From NCBI GenBank assembly GCA_964019425.1, contig OZ025829.1, positions 496,001-560,000 of the forward strand: DNA of 64,000 bases, in the 5' to 3' direction. Below, in pieces: positions 5,990-18,582 of the stretch. The notes below the pieces were generated by a model. It saw only the letters and a program-made list of their open reading frames with translations, was not told the origin of the DNA and searched no databases. Each line of letters opens with the position of its first letter. Positions within the stretch are counted from its first letter, which is position 1. The stretch comes from Flectonema sp. DT1601 (lineage: Eukaryota > Euglenozoa > Diplonemea > Diplonemida > Diplonemidae). The position numbers and the translations under genes are program-made.

Positions 5990-8929
5990 ATGCCAACCAC
6001 CGACAGGCATTTATGCACTATTTGTATGAATGTGGTGCATAGTAAAGGAAATCACATGGACATCCACAGAGCTGAAGGGGATTGGTTAGACCAATGGAAT
6101 CGACTTCCAAAATTAGAATACAGCGGAGAAGAAGTTGTCGGTCAATGGACTGATTTTATTTCAGAAGCGAATGAAAGCAGGATTACGATTGCTGAAGCAA
6201 AGGTAAAACAACAAGGATTAAAAACTCTTTCAAGACTATTACCTGGTGATATGCTGCTAATCCCATTTGGATCAACAGTCATAGGAACAACTGAGAAAGG
6301 AAGCAGTGATATTGACGTCACCATCAAAGCAATTGGTTGGAGTTCTGAAGTTACAATGCTCCGATCGGCATACGCGAGAGTCATCGGTACACATGGTTCA
6401 GTCAAGAGAGAATTACAGTCGATGTTTGATTCTTGTATTATGGTACCTCCTTTGGGTGATTTAAGTCCCATCAAGGTTAGTGCTGCTTCTCGTTCAGACG
6501 TTATTGATACGATATTATCTATTGAAAAACACCCTCAGATTATGATGAAAGTTACTCACACTGAACCAGTTAGAGACTTAGCAGATGAAGTTGAATTGTT
6601 ATCCAGAACATCAGCAAGACTTCGTACCGTATTAGATAATGTTAATTTGAGTTTATTAACAAAAACAATGGTTCCTATACTTCGATTACAAGAACGAGGA
6701 AGTACCCCAAGAGGGATTTACTTGATATTTAGAACTCCCCCTTTCCGTGAAGAAGGAGCTGCCATCCTACGAAGACATTTCGATTCGATCGTCAGTGAAG
6801 AAGATGATAGAATATACTTCGAGAGTGAGGATGACTGTCTAGACGCATTAATGTTTTTGGAAGAAAATACCGATGCCGAGCTCTCAACGAGACCTAAAAT
6901 GGGTGTTTCTCCTTCTCTGTTAGCTGATTGGGATATTACCGCAAGGCCTCAGTTCGGTCCCCGCAACAGCATTCTTCTCAGAAAAATTCTGGGAAGTGTT
7001 GGGGAATCAGCTCTCGTTGCATGTTGTCTTATAAAGAAATGGGGTAAGCTTCATGGTGTATCTGATGCTAGGAATGGGTTTTTATCATCATACGCGTTGA
7101 CAATAATGCTTTGTTACTATTTGCAGTGTGCTGGGATGGCACCATTTATCGACCCGAAAACTATTGAGCCCTCCTGGAAACAGGAATTTGAAGTTTGTGC
7201 TCCTCCTGAAACACTATCGTCGGAAGAACATATGCGAGCAAGGGAAATCACACTCGGGTTTTATGATTTCTATTCAGATTTTGACTGGGAGAATCGTTCT
7301 GTGTTGTTATCTGACTCACCTGATATCATTCATCCCAAAGATCTCGGATTCTCACTCGACATCCACAGGAAGACTCTGTTAACATGTTCCAAGAAGGATC
7401 ATATTCACAGTAACATGTTGGTGTTGGATCCTTATGATGGATTTAATGCAGCCAGAAGGATATCAAAGTTTAAATATATATTCATAAAGGGAATCTTTAG
7501 TCTGACCTCATTAGTATTACGTTCACCTAATATGACTCGTATTCTAACACATGCAGTAAAGCTTGGAGACACTATTCCATCTGATCTACTTGAGAACTGT
7601 ATTGAACGAATTGATGAAAGTAATCCAAGTCGGGGTCTTGATGATATGTGGGTCACTGTTCCAGGTACTAATCAACAGTTGAGTATGCAGGTGACGAAAT
7701 GGATGCAGCAACCTATTGCGCAGCAGAGGCAGTTTCCGGGTCAGCAGGTTGGTCTTCAACAGCTTCCATCTTCTTCCCTTCTGCTTCAGCAGCACATTCA
7801 GCAAAACCAGTTACGCTATCAACACGGTCAACAGCAACATCATCAGCAACACCATCAACCCCTCCGACAGCATCAGTCTCACCAACTTCAACATCAGCAT
7901 CAACATCAACATCAACACCAGCATCAGCATCAGCATCAGCACCACCAACGCCATCAGCACAATCAACATCAGCACCAACAACAGCAATTTTATCTTCAAC
8001 AGATTCGACAGCATCAGCAGCACCACCACCTTCATCAACAGCAACAGCAACAACAGCAACAACAGCACCAACATCAGCAACACCAACATAGGCATCACCT
8101 GCAACATCAACAACAACAACAACAACAACAACAACACCAACAGCATCATCAACAACATCACCAGCAAGTTCATCAACTACAGCAGCTCATGCGTGTCTCG
8201 TCACCTCTTCATCCTCCTCAGGGAGCATCTGTGGTTGGTCACTTACAACAACCTCCAAGTGAGGTACAAAGAATTCAGGTACCAGCCTCTAATTACTCGC
8301 AGCTTACTAATAATGTTCAGGGAACACTTGTTAGTCTCTCTCAGGGTCAACAATCGAATAGTGTTCAAGGAGCTCCTGTTGTAGTATTCTCTGGAAGTCA
8401 ACAACCAAATGAAGCTCAACCTGTGGCTGTTAGATTCTCTCAGCAGCAACATCAGCAGTCTGATGGAGTTCATGGAGTGCCTGTTGGGTTTTTACAGCAA
8501 CAACAACCTACTGATGTTTTACCTCCTATTGGGGTAGTGCAACAAGATGATGGAATGCAAACGGGGAGGTTACAAGGAGAACTCCTACCTGGTGAGTTGG
8601 ATGACCTTTCTCGGGATCAGCCTGACGATCTGTTTTCAGGAATTCAAACTTCTGACATGCCTACGTTGGGTATGTTTGATCCAGAGCCTTCTGACATACC
8701 TCAATTGGAAGACCAATTAGATCAAGTGTCAGGTGGTTTATTATTTCAGAGAAAGGGATCTGGTGATCTGTTATTTGAAAGGAAAGAATCGAACACCGAT
8801 TATGATTGTCCTCTCGAAGAACCTGACCTGTTGTTAGAGAGCGTCAGCCCAACGCACGAAGATTCCACAACCGACGAAGTTTGCGACACGAAGTCTCTTG
8901 AAAACCTCTTGAGCCGATTTTTTAAATGA
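5990..8929 (+). CDS. Terminal uridylyltransferase / non-canonical poly(A) polymerase, RET1-like
   Basis: A template-independent nucleotidyltransferase of the DNA polymerase-beta fold, 979 aa in one exon, probably adding U (or A) to RNA 3' ends. Residues 9-26 form a C2H2-type finger (C9, C12, H22, H26). The catalytic core has FGSTVIGTTEKGSSDID (D107, D109). The third Asp is in DWDITARPQFGPRNS (D315). About 200 residues separate D109 from D315 and include an RRM-like stretch (about 241-292). Kinetoplastid RET1/RET2 TUTases carry their middle domain in the same place, and RET1 also has an N-terminal zinc finger. The helical domain GFLSSYALTIMLCYYLQ and the PAP-associated motif FYDFYSDFDW follow. 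Residues 560-740 are almost pure His/Gln. The C-terminal third is acidic and disordered. UTP specificity and mitochondrial location are inference; no clear targeting peptide is seen. Confidence 0.85.
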   Translation: MPTTDRHLCTICMNVVHSKGNHMDIHRAEGDWLDQWNRLPKLEYSGEEVVGQWTDFISEANESRITIAEAKVKQQGLKTLSRLLPGDMLLIPFGSTVIGTTEKGSSDIDVTIKAIGWSSEVTMLRSAYARVIGTHGSVKRELQSMFDSCIMVPPLGDLSPIKVSAASRSDVIDTILSIEKHPQIMMKVTHTEPVRDLADEVELLSRTSARLRTVLDNVNLSLLTKTMVPILRLQERGSTPRGIYLIFRTPPFREEGAAILRRHFDSIVSEEDDRIYFESEDDCLDALMFLEENTDAELSTRPKMGVSPSLLADWDITARPQFGPRNSILLRKILGSVGESALVACCLIKKWGKLHGVSDARNGFLSSYALTIMLCYYLQCAGMAPFIDPKTIEPSWKQEFEVCAPPETLSSEEHMRAREITLGFYDFYSDFDWENRSVLLSDSPDIIHPKDLGFSLDIHRKTLLTCSKKDHIHSNMLVLDPYDGFNAARRISKFKYIFIKGIFSLTSLVLRSPNMTRILTHAVKLGDTIPSDLLENCIERIDESNPSRGLDDMWVTVPGTNQQLSMQVTKWMQQPIAQQRQFPGQQVGLQQLPSSSLLLQQHIQQNQLRYQHGQQQHHQQHHQPLRQHQSHQLQHQHQHQHQHQHQHQHQHHQRHQHNQHQHQQQQFYLQQIRQHQQHHHLHQQQQQQQQQQHQHQQHQHRHHLQHQQQQQQQQQHQQHHQQHHQQVHQLQQLMRVSSPLHPPQGASVVGHLQQPPSEVQRIQVPASNYSQLTNNVQGTLVSLSQGQQSNSVQGAPVVVFSGSQQPNEAQPVAVRFSQQQHQQSDGVHGVPVGFLQQQQPTDVLPPIGVVQQDDGMQTGRLQGELLPGELDDLSRDQPDDLFSGIQTSDMPTLGMFDPEPSDIPQLEDQLDQVSGGLLFQRKGSGDLLFERKESNTDYDCPLEEPDLLLESVSPTHEDSTTDEVCDTKSLENLLSRFFK
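7660..8200 (+). repeat. CAN-rich low-complexity tract (His/Gln) inside the TUTase gene
   Basis: About 540 bp built almost only from CAA, CAG, CAT and CAC codons, with short exact hexamer runs (CATCAA, CAGCAT). It encodes a poly-His/Gln segment of roughly 180 residues. The reading frame stays open through the whole tract, so it is maintained. Long open frames here in other frames and on the other strand (poly-Leu, poly-Ser/Thr, poly-Asn) are by-products of the repeat. Confidence 0.9.
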
Positions 8930-13072: not shown

Positions 13073-13341
13073 TGTTTTTCCTTATCGATGGTACAAATGG
13101 TTACCGAATTAGCTTCATGTGTCCAATTTCAAGGACGCGTGACCATTTATTTTTTTCCGTTGCCGCTCTTCTTACGTCCTCAGGCGGAGCCTACCTATGT
13201 TTCCCGTGTTTTCCAATTTGTCAGACTTAAGTCAAAAGAAAGTATTAAAGAAAGACAAAACATAGAAGTGAAAAGAACAAAAACAAAGAGTCTGGAAGCA
13301 CAGACGAGTGTAACCAAAAAAAAAATAATAAAAAGTCTTTT
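13073..13341 (+). repeat. 5'-truncated LINE copy (3' UTR only)
   Basis: About 257 bp nearly identical to 18237-18490, the 3' UTR of the complete-looking LINE. Shared landmarks are CCTTATCGATGG, CCGAATTAGCTTCATGTGTC, GGACGCGTGACC, AGGCGGAGCCTACCTATG and GGAAGCACAGACGAGTGTAA, then an A-rich tail. It is bounded by AGTCTTTT on the left (about 13062) and AAAAAGTCTTTT on the right (13330-13341). High identity means it inserted recently, by reverse transcription that stopped early. Confidence 0.85.
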
Positions 13342-14096
13342 CACACAAACCCAAGAATGTCTTTTTCAGAAACCCGAGTTGGTCGAACGGAAGTGACGTT
13401 TGGCCAACGTTGCAATTCAAAAACGACCTTGGCTTCCTGGCAGCGAAGTCCGAGACTTCTGCACTTGATGAATTCAAAGGAAAATTCTACATGTGCAGGT
13501 TTAAAAGCTGTTTTGGACTCCGAGTCCACCCTGACTGTAATATCAGGGTCAGCATTAAGCTCAACGCGGCAATCAAGCCTGCACTGCCCTCGGGCGACAG
13601 GTTTGTTATAAATTCGATGGCGATTCGTAAGTACTCGACAGCGCAGATCAGCGACTTCTTGAAGTCCTCACACAACTGGGAACACACAGTTGTTGCTTCT
13701 TTCCATAAAGGAGGGAGTACTACAATTGTTGCAATTGCGAAATCTCAACCGCCCAACTTCGTAAGCATAGGTACTAATGAATACCTTGTGATAAACAAAG
13801 AAGTTAGACGAACTGACAGAAAACCGCTAGGCCCAACCTACAACCCAGGCGACGCGGCTCAAAAACTAACGGGAACCCTGAAGAGACAAAAAACAACTCC
13901 TCAACCACAACAACCAACTCAGCAGCCGACATCAGCACCAACACCAGCGCCAGCACCATCAGCACCAACACCAACGCCAGCACCAGCAACAGCACAAGCG
14001 ACAACACCGCCCACCGAATCTGCTGCTAAGCAGGATAGTGATAAAAACCGTGACGTAGAAATGGAAAGTAACGATTCGGACTTTGATCTCAACTGA
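13332..14096 (+). CDS. LINE ORF1 protein
   Basis: The frame is open from 13332; the first in-frame AUG is 13491 (201 aa from there). An AUG at 13357 is in another frame. The region before 13491 still reads like protein (LQFKNDLGFLAAK, then EFKGKFYMCRFKSCFGL), so the true start is probably lost by 5' truncation or lies in a frame broken near the start. The N-terminal part (to about 13850) is a compact mixed domain I do not recognise. It is followed by a Pro/Thr/Gln/Ala linker (about 13890-14010) and an acidic tail ending SDFDLN. No CCHC knuckles are seen. In LINEs ORF1 binds the element RNA; here that is inferred from position. It ends at UGA (14094-14096) in the same frame as ORF2. Confidence 0.75.
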   Translation, partial: KVFSHKPKNVFFRNPSWSNGSDVWPTLQFKNDLGFLAAKSETSALDEFKGKFYMCRFKSCFGLRVHPDCNIRVSIKLNAAIKPALPSGDRFVINSMAIRKYSTAQISDFLKSSHNWEHTVVASFHKGGSTTIVAIAKSQPPNFVSIGTNEYLVINKEVRRTDRKPLGPTYNPGDAAQKLTGTLKRQKTTPQPQQPTQQPTSAPTPAPAPSAPTPTPAPATAQATTPPTESAAKQDSDKNRDVEMESNDSDFDLN

Positions 14097-14100
14097 CTAG
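14094..14100 (+). promoter_or_regulatory. Putative stop-codon read-through site UGA-CUA-G
   Basis: The ORF1 stop reads TGACTAG. UGA followed by CUA (and CUAG) is an established efficient read-through context in alphaviruses and some animal mRNAs. ORF1 and ORF2 are in the same frame across it, with only this stop between them. UGA is a true stop in host genes here (4531, 8927, 60210), so code reassignment is unlikely. Whether read-through occurs in this host is untested. Confidence 0.7.
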
Positions 14101-17100
14101 ATGACGATGAGGATGAACTCAGTCCAACCAACTCACTTGTGGAAAAGGATACGGCTCGAGAACTGCTGCTAAAGGCAGGCGACGTCGAACGCAACCCTGG
14201 CCCTGACAACTCTCTCATATCTCTACTGAGCTGGAACTGTCGATCGATGGGGAACAAAGGCGCTTATATTCACAAGCTGCTAAATGCCTATGCGCCTGAC
14301 GTACTGTGCCTACAGGAGACTTGGACGAATGATGTAATTTCGCACACGGACTATTTCACCTATCGGAATGATAGGGCAACACGAGGTGGAGGGGTTATTT
14401 CTATGGTGAAAAAATGCCACACTCAGCAGCGTTTGAACATGGAGCTTCCGCCACACTTAAATGATGTCGAGGTCGTGAAGGTCAACATAGGTGGAAAGAT
14501 TGACATCATCAATGTTTATGCTCCCCCGGGATGCATGATCAGAGAGTCAGATCTTCCAGTCTCAACGAAAGCAATCGTCGCGGGTGACTTTAATGCCCAT
14601 CATCCGGTGTGGTCACTTAAATCGACGAGAGCAGGTTCAACTCTACATGCATGGGCAGCTCAAAATGATCTACTGGTTGCTAACAAGATGGGGTCAATCA
14701 CAAGGCCTTTTCCTGACGTCCCGGGGGGTGGTACCTCGCCAGATGTAGTATTCTTTTCAAACTCGATGGTTCTTGAAGAATTTAGTGCAATTGAAGAAGA
14801 TAATAAACATGGGTCAGATCATCGACCTCTCTACACCGTACTGGATCCCATGTGCCAACTTGCACGGGCCACGATAGGTTCGAAGAAACGCGTTGTATGG
14901 GACTTCAAGTCTACGGACTGGAACTGCTTTGGGACCATGCTCGAAAAGAGAATTAGAAAATCAAGACTCTCCGATGATGCAACTGCGAATGCCAAGCTCT
15001 TTAACAACATACTGCATGAAGTGGCGGCTAAATTCATTCGTCGACGTCTCCTTTTCAAAGGGAAACGGAGACGAAAGTGGAAGACGTCAACCCCTGATTC
15101 TACCAAATCGAAGGGTGTCCACCTACGTGATCAACTTGACAAGGGTAACAACTTTGCCTTTGCGTTTAAGAAGATCAAAGAACTGCAGCAAGATGCTGGT
15201 AAAGATATCAGTGTCAACAACATCTCTGACTGCGATCTACCATCAGCATTCTTGGACCTGTTTGTCTCGAAATCGGAAATATTATCGCTAGAGGCCCCCG
15301 CACTCTCAGAAGGTGATAATGAAATAGATATTTGCTGTGATTTCACAATGGCTGAAATTAAAGCTGCGATTAAGAACCTGAAGACCCGCAAGGCTGCAGG
15401 ACCTGATGGAGTTCACAATGAGATGATCAAAAACTTCACTCCGGCAACAGTGGAATACCTCTTGAGAATTATTAACACTTCCTGGAAGACTTCAAAAGTA
15501 CCGTACCAATGGAAACAGGGACTAATCAAGCCCATGTTCAAGGCAGGGAAACCTCGTAATGAACCAAAGAGTTTCAGACCAATAACGCTCACCTCGGTTG
15601 TTGGGAAACTTGCGGAGAGGCTCGTGTATGACCGACTCATGCACTGGCTCACAAAACATTCGTCGCTCAGCCCACTACAGGCTGGATTCAGAAAGGGGAG
15701 AAATACCTGCGAGCAGATCACCGTTCTAGTAGATGCTATCGTAAGGAGCCACATGGAAGAAAAGAGATCAGTGTTCTTGTCATTCGACTTTACTGCTGCG
15801 TTTGACAGGATCAACCATAAGATACTTTTATTAAAATTAGTAAAGATGGGTGTTCCGAATGTTATTATCAGATGGATCACAGACTTTCTTACAAACAGGA
15901 AGGTTAGAGTTGAAGCGAATGGGTATTTTAGCGAATTCCGTACTCTGGCTAAGGGGGTTCCCCAGGGATCGATCCTGGGTCCTCTTCTCTATCTTATCTA
16001 CGTTGATGACCTCTGCAAGATTTTGGAACTAGAGAAGGAAACAACGACGTCTGCTCTGTATGCGGATGACACAGCATGTGTGGTGTCAGGATCAAACATG
16101 GAAGAAGCTCTTTCGAATGCTCAGTTAGTACTCGACAAAGTGGATCAATGGTGTTTTGAAAACGACATGGCCTTATCAGTCTCCAAAACCTGTGCGCTTA
16201 AGATGAATGTTCGCTCGAAGGGCATAGTACTAAACGATACGTGTAATCGCGAACTGCTTTTCTCTAGATCTGTTGAGGAACGCATGCTTAAACTCGACTA
16301 TGGTGACATCGAGAAGCATATCAATCTCAAATCACCCAGACCCATGCTTCAAAGTGGCGAAACGATTCTTGAAATTGGAGGAATCCCAATCAAGACACAA
16401 GAAGAACTCGACAACTTGATGCTGCAATACGTCGTTCGTGAGGACAGCATTATGGTTGTGAGAGCAATATTCAAAACTGCCTTTCTGTTACCGATAGTCG
16501 ACTCAGTAAAATACCTCGGGGTTCACATCGACGACAGGCTCACCTTCCACAAACAAGTAGGCAAGATTCACGAAGAATTAAAGAGGGGGATATCACTTCT
16601 GCAGTGCCTCCAGCCGTACGAACTGGACTACAAGACTCTTAACATGGTTAAGAACCTTTATGTAACCGCGAGAATCTCGTATGCGCTTGACAGTTTTGGT
16701 TGGCTGATAAGCAGCAGCGTTGACAGCATCGACTTCGAACTGAGGAAGGTCGCCAGACTGGTTACTGGATGCAGCAAGTGTACGCCAAGAGAGTTACTGT
16801 TGTGGGAGTCTGACATGTATCCTTTTAAACGTCAGATTGAAAAGCAGACAAAAATTGCGTACTACCGGTATAAAGCCATGACTTGGATACCTAATACAAA
16901 CAGACTCGCCTCAACACAAAGCTACTGGGCTGGCCTAATCCCTGGCACTGATAGTCAGCGAGAAAGCCAGTGCCTTGTGCAGCCTGACTCGATGGAACCC
17001 TGGGTATCTCCGACGAACCTTAGGATTAGCAACAGCTGCGGATTTCCGAAGTCCGCGAACCCTGCGGTGGACAAAGAAAAGTTCATGTCGTACATTGGAA

Positions 17101-18008
17101 CGTTGCCTCCTGTCGACATGGTAATCAACTGCGATGGCTCCTACTCTGCTTCCGGCGCGGCCGGTGCGGCTCATATTGCCAAGTCACGTAGCGGCCTTCG
17201 ATCTGCTTACGCGTCTAGGCTTTATCAAGCTGACTGCAGCTACAGGGCTGAACAACATGCTCTGAAGAACGCGGCTAGACATCTGAGAACAGTGTTTAGC
17301 AAAGATCGTTCAATGAAATCTGTGAGGATATTCACGGACTCAAAATCCCTTCTGGATGAACTGCTGGGTGGAAGGTGCAGACAGAGGAATACCGAGTCCC
17401 TCAAGATACTGGAATACCTGCGCATGTGTGAGATGAAAGTGCATTTGCAATTCATCCCCTCGCACATTGGAATCGAGTTTCACGATGAAGTTGACGCGCT
17501 TGCAAAGGAAGCAGCGCACAACAAGAACATCCGACCTGTGCTAGTCAAAGGCACGTACTTCTCGCGCTCGTCACATGTTAAGCGCTGCATCAAAAAGGAT
17601 CTGCTTAACGTGAGTGGTTACACCTGCTACAAACACCTCATCAGAGGCCGTTCCGTAAAATACCCTCCTGGGATGGAAAGAGCCGACGAGATACGGATAG
17701 CGAACTTCCGGACAGGATGTCACCCGCTAATTCAGAACTGGCGCAAGACGATCGACTGCCCATTTTGTGGCGAACCGTCCTCACAGGTTCACCTGCTGCA
17801 GGGATGTCAATCTCCCAAACTCGACTCTGCCAGGTTCAAAATCCTGGGCTTCTCAACACTGACCGGCAAGTGGGATCGCGATCGAGAACTTATTATTGCC
17901 AACGAAATTCCTAACCTTGAAGCTCTCTTCACTTTGGCGTGGCTTCCATCACTCGCGTTGATCATAAGGTGGATGGAACAAACATCTAACCTTAGACTTT
18001 GGAAGTAA
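14097..18008 (+). CDS. LINE ORF2: 2A - AP endonuclease - reverse transcriptase - RNase H polyprotein
   Basis: 1,303 codons open after the UGA. The 2A motif comes first (14154-14204). Endonuclease motifs: SWNCRS, CLQETW, AGDFNAHHPVW, SPDVVF and GSDHRPL. Reverse transcriptase motifs: RKAAGPDGV, SFRPITLTSV, QAGFRKGRN, SFDFTAAFD, GVPQGSILGPLLY, YADD (in LYADDTAC) and YLGVHIDD. RNase H: NCDGSYS, YRAEQHAL, IFTDSKS and FIPSHIG with VDALAKEA supply the acidic and His residues. A CCHC-like motif (CPFCGE, then HLLQGC) follows near 17758-17800. No AUG occurs in frame before the endonuclease: the first is in CRSM, at about 14248. About 90 extra residues sit between YADD and the thumb motif and look PDZ-like. 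The protein would nick target DNA and prime reverse transcription there. Confidence 0.93.
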   Translation, partial: LDDDEDELSPTNSLVEKDTARELLLKAGDVERNPGPDNSLISLLSWNCRSMGNKGAYIHKLLNAYAPDVLCLQETWTNDVISHTDYFTYRNDRATRGGGVISMVKKCHTQQRLNMELPPHLNDVEVVKVNIGGKIDIINVYAPPGCMIRESDLPVSTKAIVAGDFNAHHPVWSLKSTRAGSTLHAWAAQNDLLVANKMGSITRPFPDVPGGGTSPDVVFFSNSMVLEEFSAIEEDNKHGSDHRPLYTVLDPMCQLARATIGSKKRVVWDFKSTDWNCFGTMLEKRIRKSRLSDDATANAKLFNNILHEVAAKFIRRRLLFKGKRRRKWKTSTPDSTKSKGVHLRDQLDKGNNFAFAFKKIKELQQDAGKDISVNNISDCDLPSAFLDLFVSKSEILSLEAPALSEGDNEIDICCDFTMAEIKAAIKNLKTRKAAGPDGVHNEMIKNFTPATVEYLLRIINTSWKTSKVPYQWKQGLIKPMFKAGKPRNEPKSFRPITLTSVVGKLAERLVYDRLMHWLTKHSSLSPLQAGFRKGRNTCEQITVLVDAIVRSHMEEKRSVFLSFDFTAAFDRINHKILLLKLVKMGVPNVIIRWITDFLTNRKVRVEANGYFSEFRTLAKGVPQGSILGPLLYLIYVDDLCKILELEKETTTSALYADDTACVVSGSNMEEALSNAQLVLDKVDQWCFENDMALSVSKTCALKMNVRSKGIVLNDTCNRELLFSRSVEERMLKLDYGDIEKHINLKSPRPMLQSGETILEIGGIPIKTQEELDNLMLQYVVREDSIMVVRAIFKTAFLLPIVDSVKYLGVHIDDRLTFHKQVGKIHEELKRGISLLQCLQPYELDYKTLNMVKNLYVTARISYALDSFGWLISSSVDSIDFELRKVARLVTGCSKCTPRELLLWESDMYPFKRQIEKQTKIAYYRYKAMTWIPNTNRLASTQSYWAGLIPGTDSQRESQCLVQPDSMEPWVSPTNLRISNSCGFPKSANPAVDKEKFMSYIGTLPPVDMVINCDGSYSASGAAGAAHIAKSRSGLRSAYASRLYQADCSYRAEQHALKNAARHLRTVFSKDRSMKSVRIFTDSKSLLDELLGGRCRQRNTESLKILEYLRMCEMKVHLQFIPSHIGIEFHDEVDALAKEAAHNKNIRPVLVKGTYFSRSSHVKRCIKKDLLNVSGYTCYKHLIRGRSVKYPPGMERADEIRIANFRTGCHPLIQNWRKTIDCPFCGEPSSQVHLLQGCQSPKLDSARFKILGFSTLTGKWDRDRELIIANEIPNLEALFTLAWLPSLALIIRWMEQTSNLRLWK
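14154..14204 (+). other. 2A ribosome-skipping peptide motif
   Basis: The encoded peptide ARELLLKAGDVERNPGP contains the canonical 2A core D-V-E-x-N-P-G-P with the usual preceding LLxxAG helix. Skipping would occur between Gly (14199-14201) and Pro (14202-14204), releasing ORF2 with an N-terminal Pro right at the endonuclease. 2A at this place is known in trypanosome L1Tc and several other non-LTR elements. Confidence 0.93.
16219..16497 (+). other. PDZ-like insertion in the LINE reverse transcriptase
   Basis: Between the palm (SVSKTCALKMNV) and the thumb motif (VKYLGVHIDD) lies an extra segment of about 90 residues. Its second half reads GETILEIGGIPIKTQEELDN and ends in IMVVRA, the pattern of a PDZ domain's GD-x-I-L-x-I-N-G-x-x-I...L strand-helix-strand. 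The first half is less clear. The frame stays open across it. The likeness is by eye only and the fold is unproven. Confidence 0.45.
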
Positions 18009-18236
18009 AGTAGGTGACATGTAGTCGCCAATATCAATTTGTTATTATTTTTAGTATTTTCATCATTATCAATCATCTCCTGGTTGGGTAACTGTACATC
18101 ACCTTCAGTGTTGTCGCAGTGTCTCTTCCAACACTCCTGTCTCCTTCTTCTCCTATTCTCCTTATTAATTTCTCTTGAGGGCAGGCCTTCGGGCTGTTCA
18201 AGTGGTCTTTGACCACCGCTCTAGTTATATGCTCGA

Positions 18237-18490
18237 TTCTTTGTTTTCCTTATCGATGGTAGGAATGGTAACCGAATTAGCTTCATGTGTCCAATTTCAA
18301 GGACGCGTGACCATTTATTTTTCCGTTGCCGCTCTTCTTACGTCCTCAGGCGGAGCCTACCTATGTTTCCCGTGTTTTCCAATTTGTCAGACTTAAACCA
18401 AAAGAAAGTAAAAAAAGAAAGACAAAACAAAGAAGTGAAAAGAACAAAAACAAAGAGTCTGGAAGCACAGACGAGTGTAACCAAAAAAAA
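18237..18490 (+). repeat. LINE 3' UTR end segment, second copy of the 13073 repeat
   Basis: Matches 13073-13329 almost base for base and ends in a 13-nt A run. It lies within the 3' UTR (18009-18490) of the LINE. Recombination between the two copies could delete the whole element. Confidence 0.85.
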
Positions 18491-18511
18491 AAAAAGTCTT
18501 TTTCCACCACG

Positions 18512-18582
18512 GCGCCCATGGTGTAACGGCAGCATTCCCTACATACCGTTGGGAGGACCTGGTTCGACTCCGGGTGGGTGCA
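18512..18582 (+). tRNA. tRNA-like gene, isotype unresolved (possibly decayed)
   Basis: A 71-nt cloverleaf. Acceptor GCGCCCA pairs with TGGGTGC (one G-U). D arm is GTGT/GCAT with loop AACGGCA (G18, G19 and A21 present). T arm is CCTGG/CCGGG with loop TTCGACT. The A box (TGGTGTAACGGC) and B box (GGTTCGACTCC) fit Pol III consensus, and a T6 terminator follows. The anticodon arm is faulty: CCCTA/TTGGG has a U-U mismatch and the loop CATACCG has A instead of U at position 33. The anticodon would read UAC (Val) if functional. A tRNA pseudogene or the head of a SINE is equally possible. It begins only 9 nt after the LINE's flanking repeat. Confidence 0.6.

Follow-up and report, generated by a model that had tools for sequence, protein, structure and literature searches.

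How does a retrotransposon obtain its second protein when the frame for it opens directly behind the stop codon of the first? To our knowledge, it is understood for few long interspersed nuclear elements (LINEs) how they make a second protein and how they keep its amount so low. The question is raised here by a LINE in Flectonema sp. DT1601, one copy of which lies in the window, the stretch of 64,000 nucleotides (nt) of contig OZ025829.1 (positions 496,001 to 560,000) that was analysed. Its first open reading frame (ORF1) ends in UGA followed by CUAG, and its second (ORF2) continues in the same frame with no further stop from 14097 to the TAA at 18006-18008 (1303 codons); the UGA-CUAG and the open frame behind it are as a preliminary description of this DNA had them. 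A 2A peptide, LLLKAGDVERNPGP, follows in that frame; it starts at codon 23 after the stop and not 18 codons past it, as was first described. Judging from the sequence, this endonuclease-bearing LINE very probably uses one start site for both of its proteins and recodes twice in succession, by a read-through of the UGA and a ribosomal skip at the 2A peptide.

Under this scheme most ribosomes would terminate at the UGA and release the ORF1 protein. A minority would misread the UGA, in its context AAN-UGA-C (AAC-UGA-CUAG in the window copy), as a sense codon and go on to translate the short spacer behind it. At the 2A peptide the bond between Gly and Pro would then be skipped, releasing an ORF1 protein lengthened at its C-terminus (by about 36 residues in the families A and B introduced below) and, after the skip, a free ORF2 protein starting with proline. 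The read-through itself, its efficiency, the activity of the 2A and the resulting ratio of ORF1 to ORF2 protein are what we infer.

What can be read directly is that the UGA is in frame and conserved, that an AUG is usually missing, that a 2A motif is present and that, in four lineages, the spacer is under selection as protein. A DNA search of the 89.5 Mb genome returned at least 34 matches, which comprise a group A (98-100%), a group B (89-90%) and one locus, L012, at 91%. Thirty of these A/B loci were fetched and 29 hold the junction between the ORFs. All 29 have an ORF2 open for 1303 codons and the junction AAC-TGA-CTA-GAT, even though A and B have different codons on either side of it; the 2A proline is always codon 36 after the UGA and the first in-frame AUG codon 51. 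An uninterrupted ORF1 of 549-553 amino acids (aa), starting MRDNL, is found in 20 of the 29. For one A/B pair, L002 and L013, the synonymous divergence (dS) of ORF1 is 1.18 with a ratio of nonsynonymous to synonymous divergence (dN/dS) of 0.10, and the corresponding values for ORF2 are 0.31 and 0.12; both proteins are therefore held by selection. The locus at 91%, L012, is an apparent recombinant, its ORF1 near A (dS 0.30) and its ORF2 near B (dS 0.04), with the switch point probably past the start of ORF2.

More distant relatives widen the comparison. The proteins P0002 and P0005, 68% and 42% identical to the ORF2 of A, led as queries to families C, D, E and F, and a search for the 2A core DVExNPGP, which has 137 sites in the genome and none for the reversed control pattern, additionally pointed, among the first sites listed, to lineages G and H. 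Junction pieces were fetched from 10 C loci, 14 D/E/F loci and 20 further 2A sites. The junction is present in 41 of these 44 pieces, always as AAN-UGA-C; the other three are L044 (D), rearranged before it, L056 (G), where the piece is too short, and the degenerate L069, in which the nearest stop in the 2A frame is TAG. Upstream of the junction in the short loci, the ORF1 pieces of 44-61 codons are open to the edge of the locus, except in L071. The 2A motif reads AGDVERNPGP in A, C, D, E, G and H, and AGDVETNPGP or AGDVEINPGP in F. Together with the 29 A/B copies, AAN-UGA-C stands in 70 of 70 junctions read directly.

A census of the genome was taken with patterns made from the flanks of each family, which accepted any codon in the stop position and at most two mismatches, or one for G. 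TGA was found in 39/39 junctions of A/B, 17/17 of D, 27/27 of C, 30/30 of E and H, 15/15 of G and 7/7 of F, or 135 of 135, and a sense codon, UAA or UAG in none. These patterns miss diverged copies and contained the bases flanking the stop; it is the 70 directly read junctions that carry the AAN before and the C after the UGA. Copies within a family are mostly recent and near-identical, so the census counts are not independent and the real sample is about eight lineages. For this reason the weight rests on the comparison across the eight, whose ORF2 proteins are down to 42% identical and which have two unrelated types of ORF1.

The census speaks directly to the idea that the UGA is a recent, functionless nonsense mutation in an element that encodes a fused ORF1-2A-ORF2 protein. 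Such an element with one ORF and a 2A would presumably resemble L1Tc, and acidic residues are indeed found on both sides of the UGA in A and B. The UGA is, however, common to lineages of heavy synonymous divergence and to both ORF1 types, and none of the 135 junctions has a sense codon; we give this explanation hardly any probability. The preliminary description had staked its read-through on other copies keeping the stop rather than mostly having a sense codon there, and on this point it stands.

The bases around the UGA are conserved in part. The contexts are AAC-UGA-CUAG in A, B and F, AAC-UGA-CUUG in C (one C copy reads CUCG), AAG-UGA-CUUG in E, AAG-UGA-CAUG in H, AAA-UGA-CGGC in D and AAU-UGA-CCGG in G, so that AAN on the 5' side and C on the 3' side are common to the lineages, which differ from one another at positions +5 and +6. 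Stops with C as the next base are described as weak, and UGA-CUA alone as giving 1.5% read-through in human cells (PMC4132726); UGA-CUA and UGA-CGG are given as the two classic type II read-through contexts (PMC3542737). One of these two contexts is present in A, B and F (CUA) and in D (CGG). Of the UGA-CUAG that the preliminary description stressed, what is kept in all lineages is thus a UGA followed by C, while the full CUAG is confined to A, B and F, three of the eight.

The spacer between the UGA and the 2A provides a further look at translation past the stop. From the UGA to the final proline of the 2A it measures 36 codons in A/B, 56 in C, 28 in D, 26 in E and H, 28 in G and 25 in F, in all cases in the frame of ORF1. 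An alignment of D, E (two copies), H and G covers 16 codons (DGR.WAETRRRLLL.A) and starts one to three codons past the UGA. In the ten pairwise comparisons of this stretch there are 0.21-0.97 synonymous and 0-0.10 nonsynonymous differences per site, a mark of protein coding that points to strong purifying selection on the stretch as protein. Because this selected stretch is usually without an AUG, ribosomes would most simply enter the spacer via the UGA. Spacers that differ in length and stay in frame, and the selection seen in D, E, H and G, support the view that the UGA is translated through, and together with the 135 junctions free of sense codons they favour the two steps that the preliminary description had suggested, read-through and then 2A.

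Several observations weigh against this reading and should be set beside the evidence for it. The CUU (C, E), CAU (H) and CCG (G) contexts lie outside the classic type II motif. For most viral type II sites, not all, a stem-loop about 8 nt downstream has been proposed (PMC3542737); among seven sequences (A, C, D, E and F), folded singly, no downstream RNA fold clearly beat its shuffles (z from -1.75 to +1.40, the lowest value being that of D). Since the stem-loop did not emerge, our claim is limited to the context: the element uses UGA-CUA/CGG, and a full type II site with a stem-loop is not claimed. A stop suppression predicted for the yeast long terminal repeat (LTR) element Tca2 is reported to have failed in reporters (PMC7175516). 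Some copies are not intact: the 2A of L045 (D) is frameshifted, the ORF1 upstream is disrupted in L071 (D), the spacer of L038 (C) contains another TGA, and in each of the two F matches one in-frame TGA falls within the ORF2 part. For the pairs A and C, A and E, and C and D, the spacer shows little conservation (0.39-0.52 nonsynonymous differences per site), and the protein-level signal therefore comes from the D/E/H/G group. Lastly, an AUG before the 2A, which had been named at the outset as a sign against read-through, does occur in frame ahead of the 2A core in 7 of the 70 copies read (C 2/10, H 4/6, D 1/7). The remaining 63 show none, that is, all 29 of A/B and 34 of the 41 others (E 0/6, G 0/7 and F 0/5 among them), with the reservation that in three copies, L033, L034 and L045, tracing of the spacer stopped short of the 2A core. 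The AUG is hence absent as a rule, with exceptions in three lineages.

These AUGs lend some colour to termination-reinitiation, in which ORF1 is finished and a restart at a nearby start codon gives ORF2, a mode known in LINEs from silkworm SART1 and proposed for mammalian L1 (PMC5972666). The window copy, too, has ATGs adjoining the stop, at 14101, 14107 and 14113, but they are in another frame, and the first one in frame, at 14247, is codon 51 after the UGA, as in the rest of A/B. One E copy has its first in-frame AUG at codon 99; this codon and codon 51 of A/B both fall within the endonuclease. (P0006, a possibly truncated copy, had suggested that in E no AUG precedes the end of the endonuclease; codon 99 rules this out.) Reinitiation would moreover require neither a common frame nor protein-level selection directly past the stop, and we regard it as quite unlikely. 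A start of ORF2 at a non-AUG codon or at an internal site, with the 2A as a relic, would have to live with a 2A core found at 137 sites against none for the control and with an ORF1 frame retained despite spacers of 25-56 codons; this strikes us as highly improbable.

The UGA could also be absent from a part of the mRNA, spliced out with a short intron or edited, so that a fused ORF is translated. The host seems to have introns, as broken ORFs suggest, and by eye GT...AG strings can be made out that span the UGA in A and D, although the donor string of A is absent in B and no donor or acceptor common to the families was found by eye. Transcripts give a further hint. Two proteins from EukProt transcripts, P0124 and P0125, are 48-49% identical to the ORF1 of A and both end in Asn at the homologous place, so that RNA apparently retains a stop. 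We regard splicing or editing as very unlikely. The two proteins probably belong to other species, because no Cdc20 in EukProt is more than 56% identical to that of the host. P0124 shares one Trinity gene name with P0003, a homologue of ORF2, which suggests, short of proof, that both were derived from one transcript. All in all, reinitiation, splicing and non-AUG initiation fit less well than read-through of the UGA followed by the 2A skip. A reassignment of UGA to Trp in the host was considered as well and is ruled out: an ORF of 3271 aa in the window has 68 Trp codons, all TGG, and not one TGA. Seven of the 15 listed frames of the window end in TGA.

The junction occurs with more than one combination of proteins. 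The frames upstream of it were read in single copies of D, E, F and G. One type of ORF1 is common to D, E and G; it is open for at least 610 codons (as far as read, short of the start) and has no significant match to the ORF1 of A (E-values 0.14 to 1.3). The ORF1 of F (L078, on contig C39), in contrast, matches that of A with 32% identity over 367 aa (E 1e-61), while the ORF2 of F (copies on contigs C54 and C46) is 71% identical to that of D. F thus combines an A-type ORF1 with a D-like ORF2 and retains the junction, which means that the UGA-2A junction was kept across an exchange of ORF1. By eye, and for the ends only, the ORF1 of C looks A-like and that of H E-like. One may go further and regard AAN-UGA-C plus 2A as a portable expression junction that outlives the swap of ORF1 and sets a low ORF2:ORF1 ratio across the whole LINE lineage by two successive recoding events; for this wider proposal the arguments seem to us evenly balanced. 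If it is true, transposition would be set directly by the control that the host has over UGA read-through.

The element is a non-LTR retrotransposon of the apurinic/apyrimidinic endonuclease (APE) type, its AP-type endonuclease and its reverse transcriptase being encoded by a single ORF; in the window copy the Pfam families Exo_endo_phos and RVT_1 match ORF2 with E-values of 1e-12 and 5e-33. A region like RNase H is visible by eye, and the Pfam family RNase_H has no match there at E <= 1; among the relatives it is above the cut-off in P0003 and P0004, below it in P0005 and without a match in P0002. We presume a resemblance to the Ingi/L1Tc clade. The full ORF1 matches no Pfam family at E <= 1, its fold model is poor (mean predicted local distance difference test score, pLDDT, of 45.6), and one scan of IMG/VR for relatives gave no match.

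Table 1. Features of the LINE copy in the window and of its immediate surroundings
Feature	Position	Strand	Basis or remark
3' tail left by a previous LINE insertion (5'-truncated), directly upstream	13076..13333	+	blocks matching the LINE's own 3' end
Target-site duplication, 5' copy, AGTCTTTT	13334..13341	+	exact edge blurred by A runs
ORF1, 3' part only (5'-truncated copy)	13342..14093	+	alignment of genomic copies
UGA stop ending ORF1, proposed read-through codon	14094..14096	+	sequence read; stop-codon census
CUAG, 3' read-through context	14097..14100	+	sequence read; context as described in PMC3542737 and PMC4132726
Spacer from UGA to 2A, in-frame ATG absent	14097..14162	+	sequence read
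2A peptide, LLLKAGDVERNPG/P	14163..14204	+	expected skip between Gly (14199-14201) and Pro (14202-14204)
Predicted ORF2 product freed by the skip, with endonuclease, reverse transcriptase and a region resembling RNase H (by eye)	14202..18008	+	Pfam RVT_1, Exo_endo_phos
First in-frame AUG of ORF2	14247..14249	+	within the endonuclease, 3' of the LLSWNC strand
3' untranslated region and poly(A) tail of the LINE	18009..18495	+	sequence read
Target-site duplication, 3' copy	18495..18502	+	8 bases identical to 13334-13341
tRNA-Val, anticodon TAC	18512..18582	+	17 bp past the poly(A) end; likely insertion target

The window copy is one of several shortened at the 5' end (others are, for example, L001, L011, L029 and L030): its LINE sequence begins near 13342, and some 300 N-terminal residues of ORF1 are missing. 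It has a poly(A) tail and is flanked by the duplication AGTCTTTT, whose 8 bp are the expectation for target-primed insertion. The tail of the earlier insertion upstream consists of blocks of 98, 82 and 79 nt with 96-98% identity to the 3' end of the window LINE (18244-18495). Such head-to-tail stacking, in which the tail of one LINE abuts the 5' end of the next, is seen in the window (13076-13345) and at L013 and L014 on contig C34, as if one tRNA site had been hit repeatedly. Ahead of the full-length 5' end, TGTACTTTATTG, a variable number of short CTGTACTT-like repeats is present (L005, L006, L009, L015, L019). Elsewhere in the window, a CAN-rich repeat in a host gene (7695-8384) gives long frames in another frame and on the opposite strand, probably an effect of composition.

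The tRNA gene behind the window copy has counterparts at other loci; the analysis of targets covers A/B. A canonical tRNA gene is found just downstream on the same strand at 7 of 30 loci (L001, L002, L007, L008, L011, L015, L023), and a B-box-like sequence within 130 bp downstream at 17 of the 27 loci with a located 3' end (that of L005 probably belongs to the adjoining tail); none of 448 control segments, taken from one strand of the window, has one. It looks as if the A/B LINE inserts directly upstream of tRNA or tRNA-like genes, in the same orientation. Dictyostelid TRE5 and NLTR-A/B likewise insert upstream of tRNA genes; the distance from the poly(A) end to the tRNA is 17-35 bp here, compared with 40-54 bp for TRE5 and 2-6 bp for NLTR-A (PMC5911963). 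These dictyostelid elements are filed in the L1 clade, and the available portion of that account does not mention a UGA-2A junction.

If the scheme is true, the leaky stop would set the amount of ORF2 protein and the 2A would free the product, an arrangement that is readable from sequence. The junction joins two recoding devices best known from viruses and is kept in a LINE lineage across deep divergence, and its natural variants after the UGA (CUA, CUU, CGG, CAU and CCG) would be useful for measuring what makes a stop leak.

In elements of the L1Tc type the 2A stands near the start of the ORF itself. Here, by contrast, there is a conserved in-frame UGA between ORF1 and the 2A, and ORF2 is usually without an AUG of its own ahead of the 2A; shared with the L1Tc type are the endonuclease, the reverse transcriptase and a DVExNPGP 2A (PMC4981915). 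The parts of the arrangement are known. A 2A has been described in L1Tc and other APE-type non-LTR elements (Heras 2006 and Odon 2013, as cited in PMC4981915), and read-through of the ORF1 stop has been suggested for the Paramecium germline LINE Group 3, for which the available part of the report does not mention a 2A (PMC5405496). The combination of UGA read-through and 2A in a LINE is apparently new; none was found in the literature searched, with an earlier mention in Odon 2013 or Luke 2014 possible. Viral type II read-through, as described for alphaviruses, tobraviruses and furoviruses (PMC3542737), shares UGA-CUA/CGG with A, B, F and D, and the mammalian UGA-CUAG genes (PMC4132726) share UGA-CUA with A, B and F. 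Unlike either, the present lineages include other UGA-C contexts (C, E, H, G), the sequences folded gave no RNA structure in support, and a 2A follows. The StopGo and frameshift of theiloviruses likewise place two recoding events close together, one of them a 2A; there the 2A precedes the frameshift, and the setting is a virus, not a LINE (PMC5009743).

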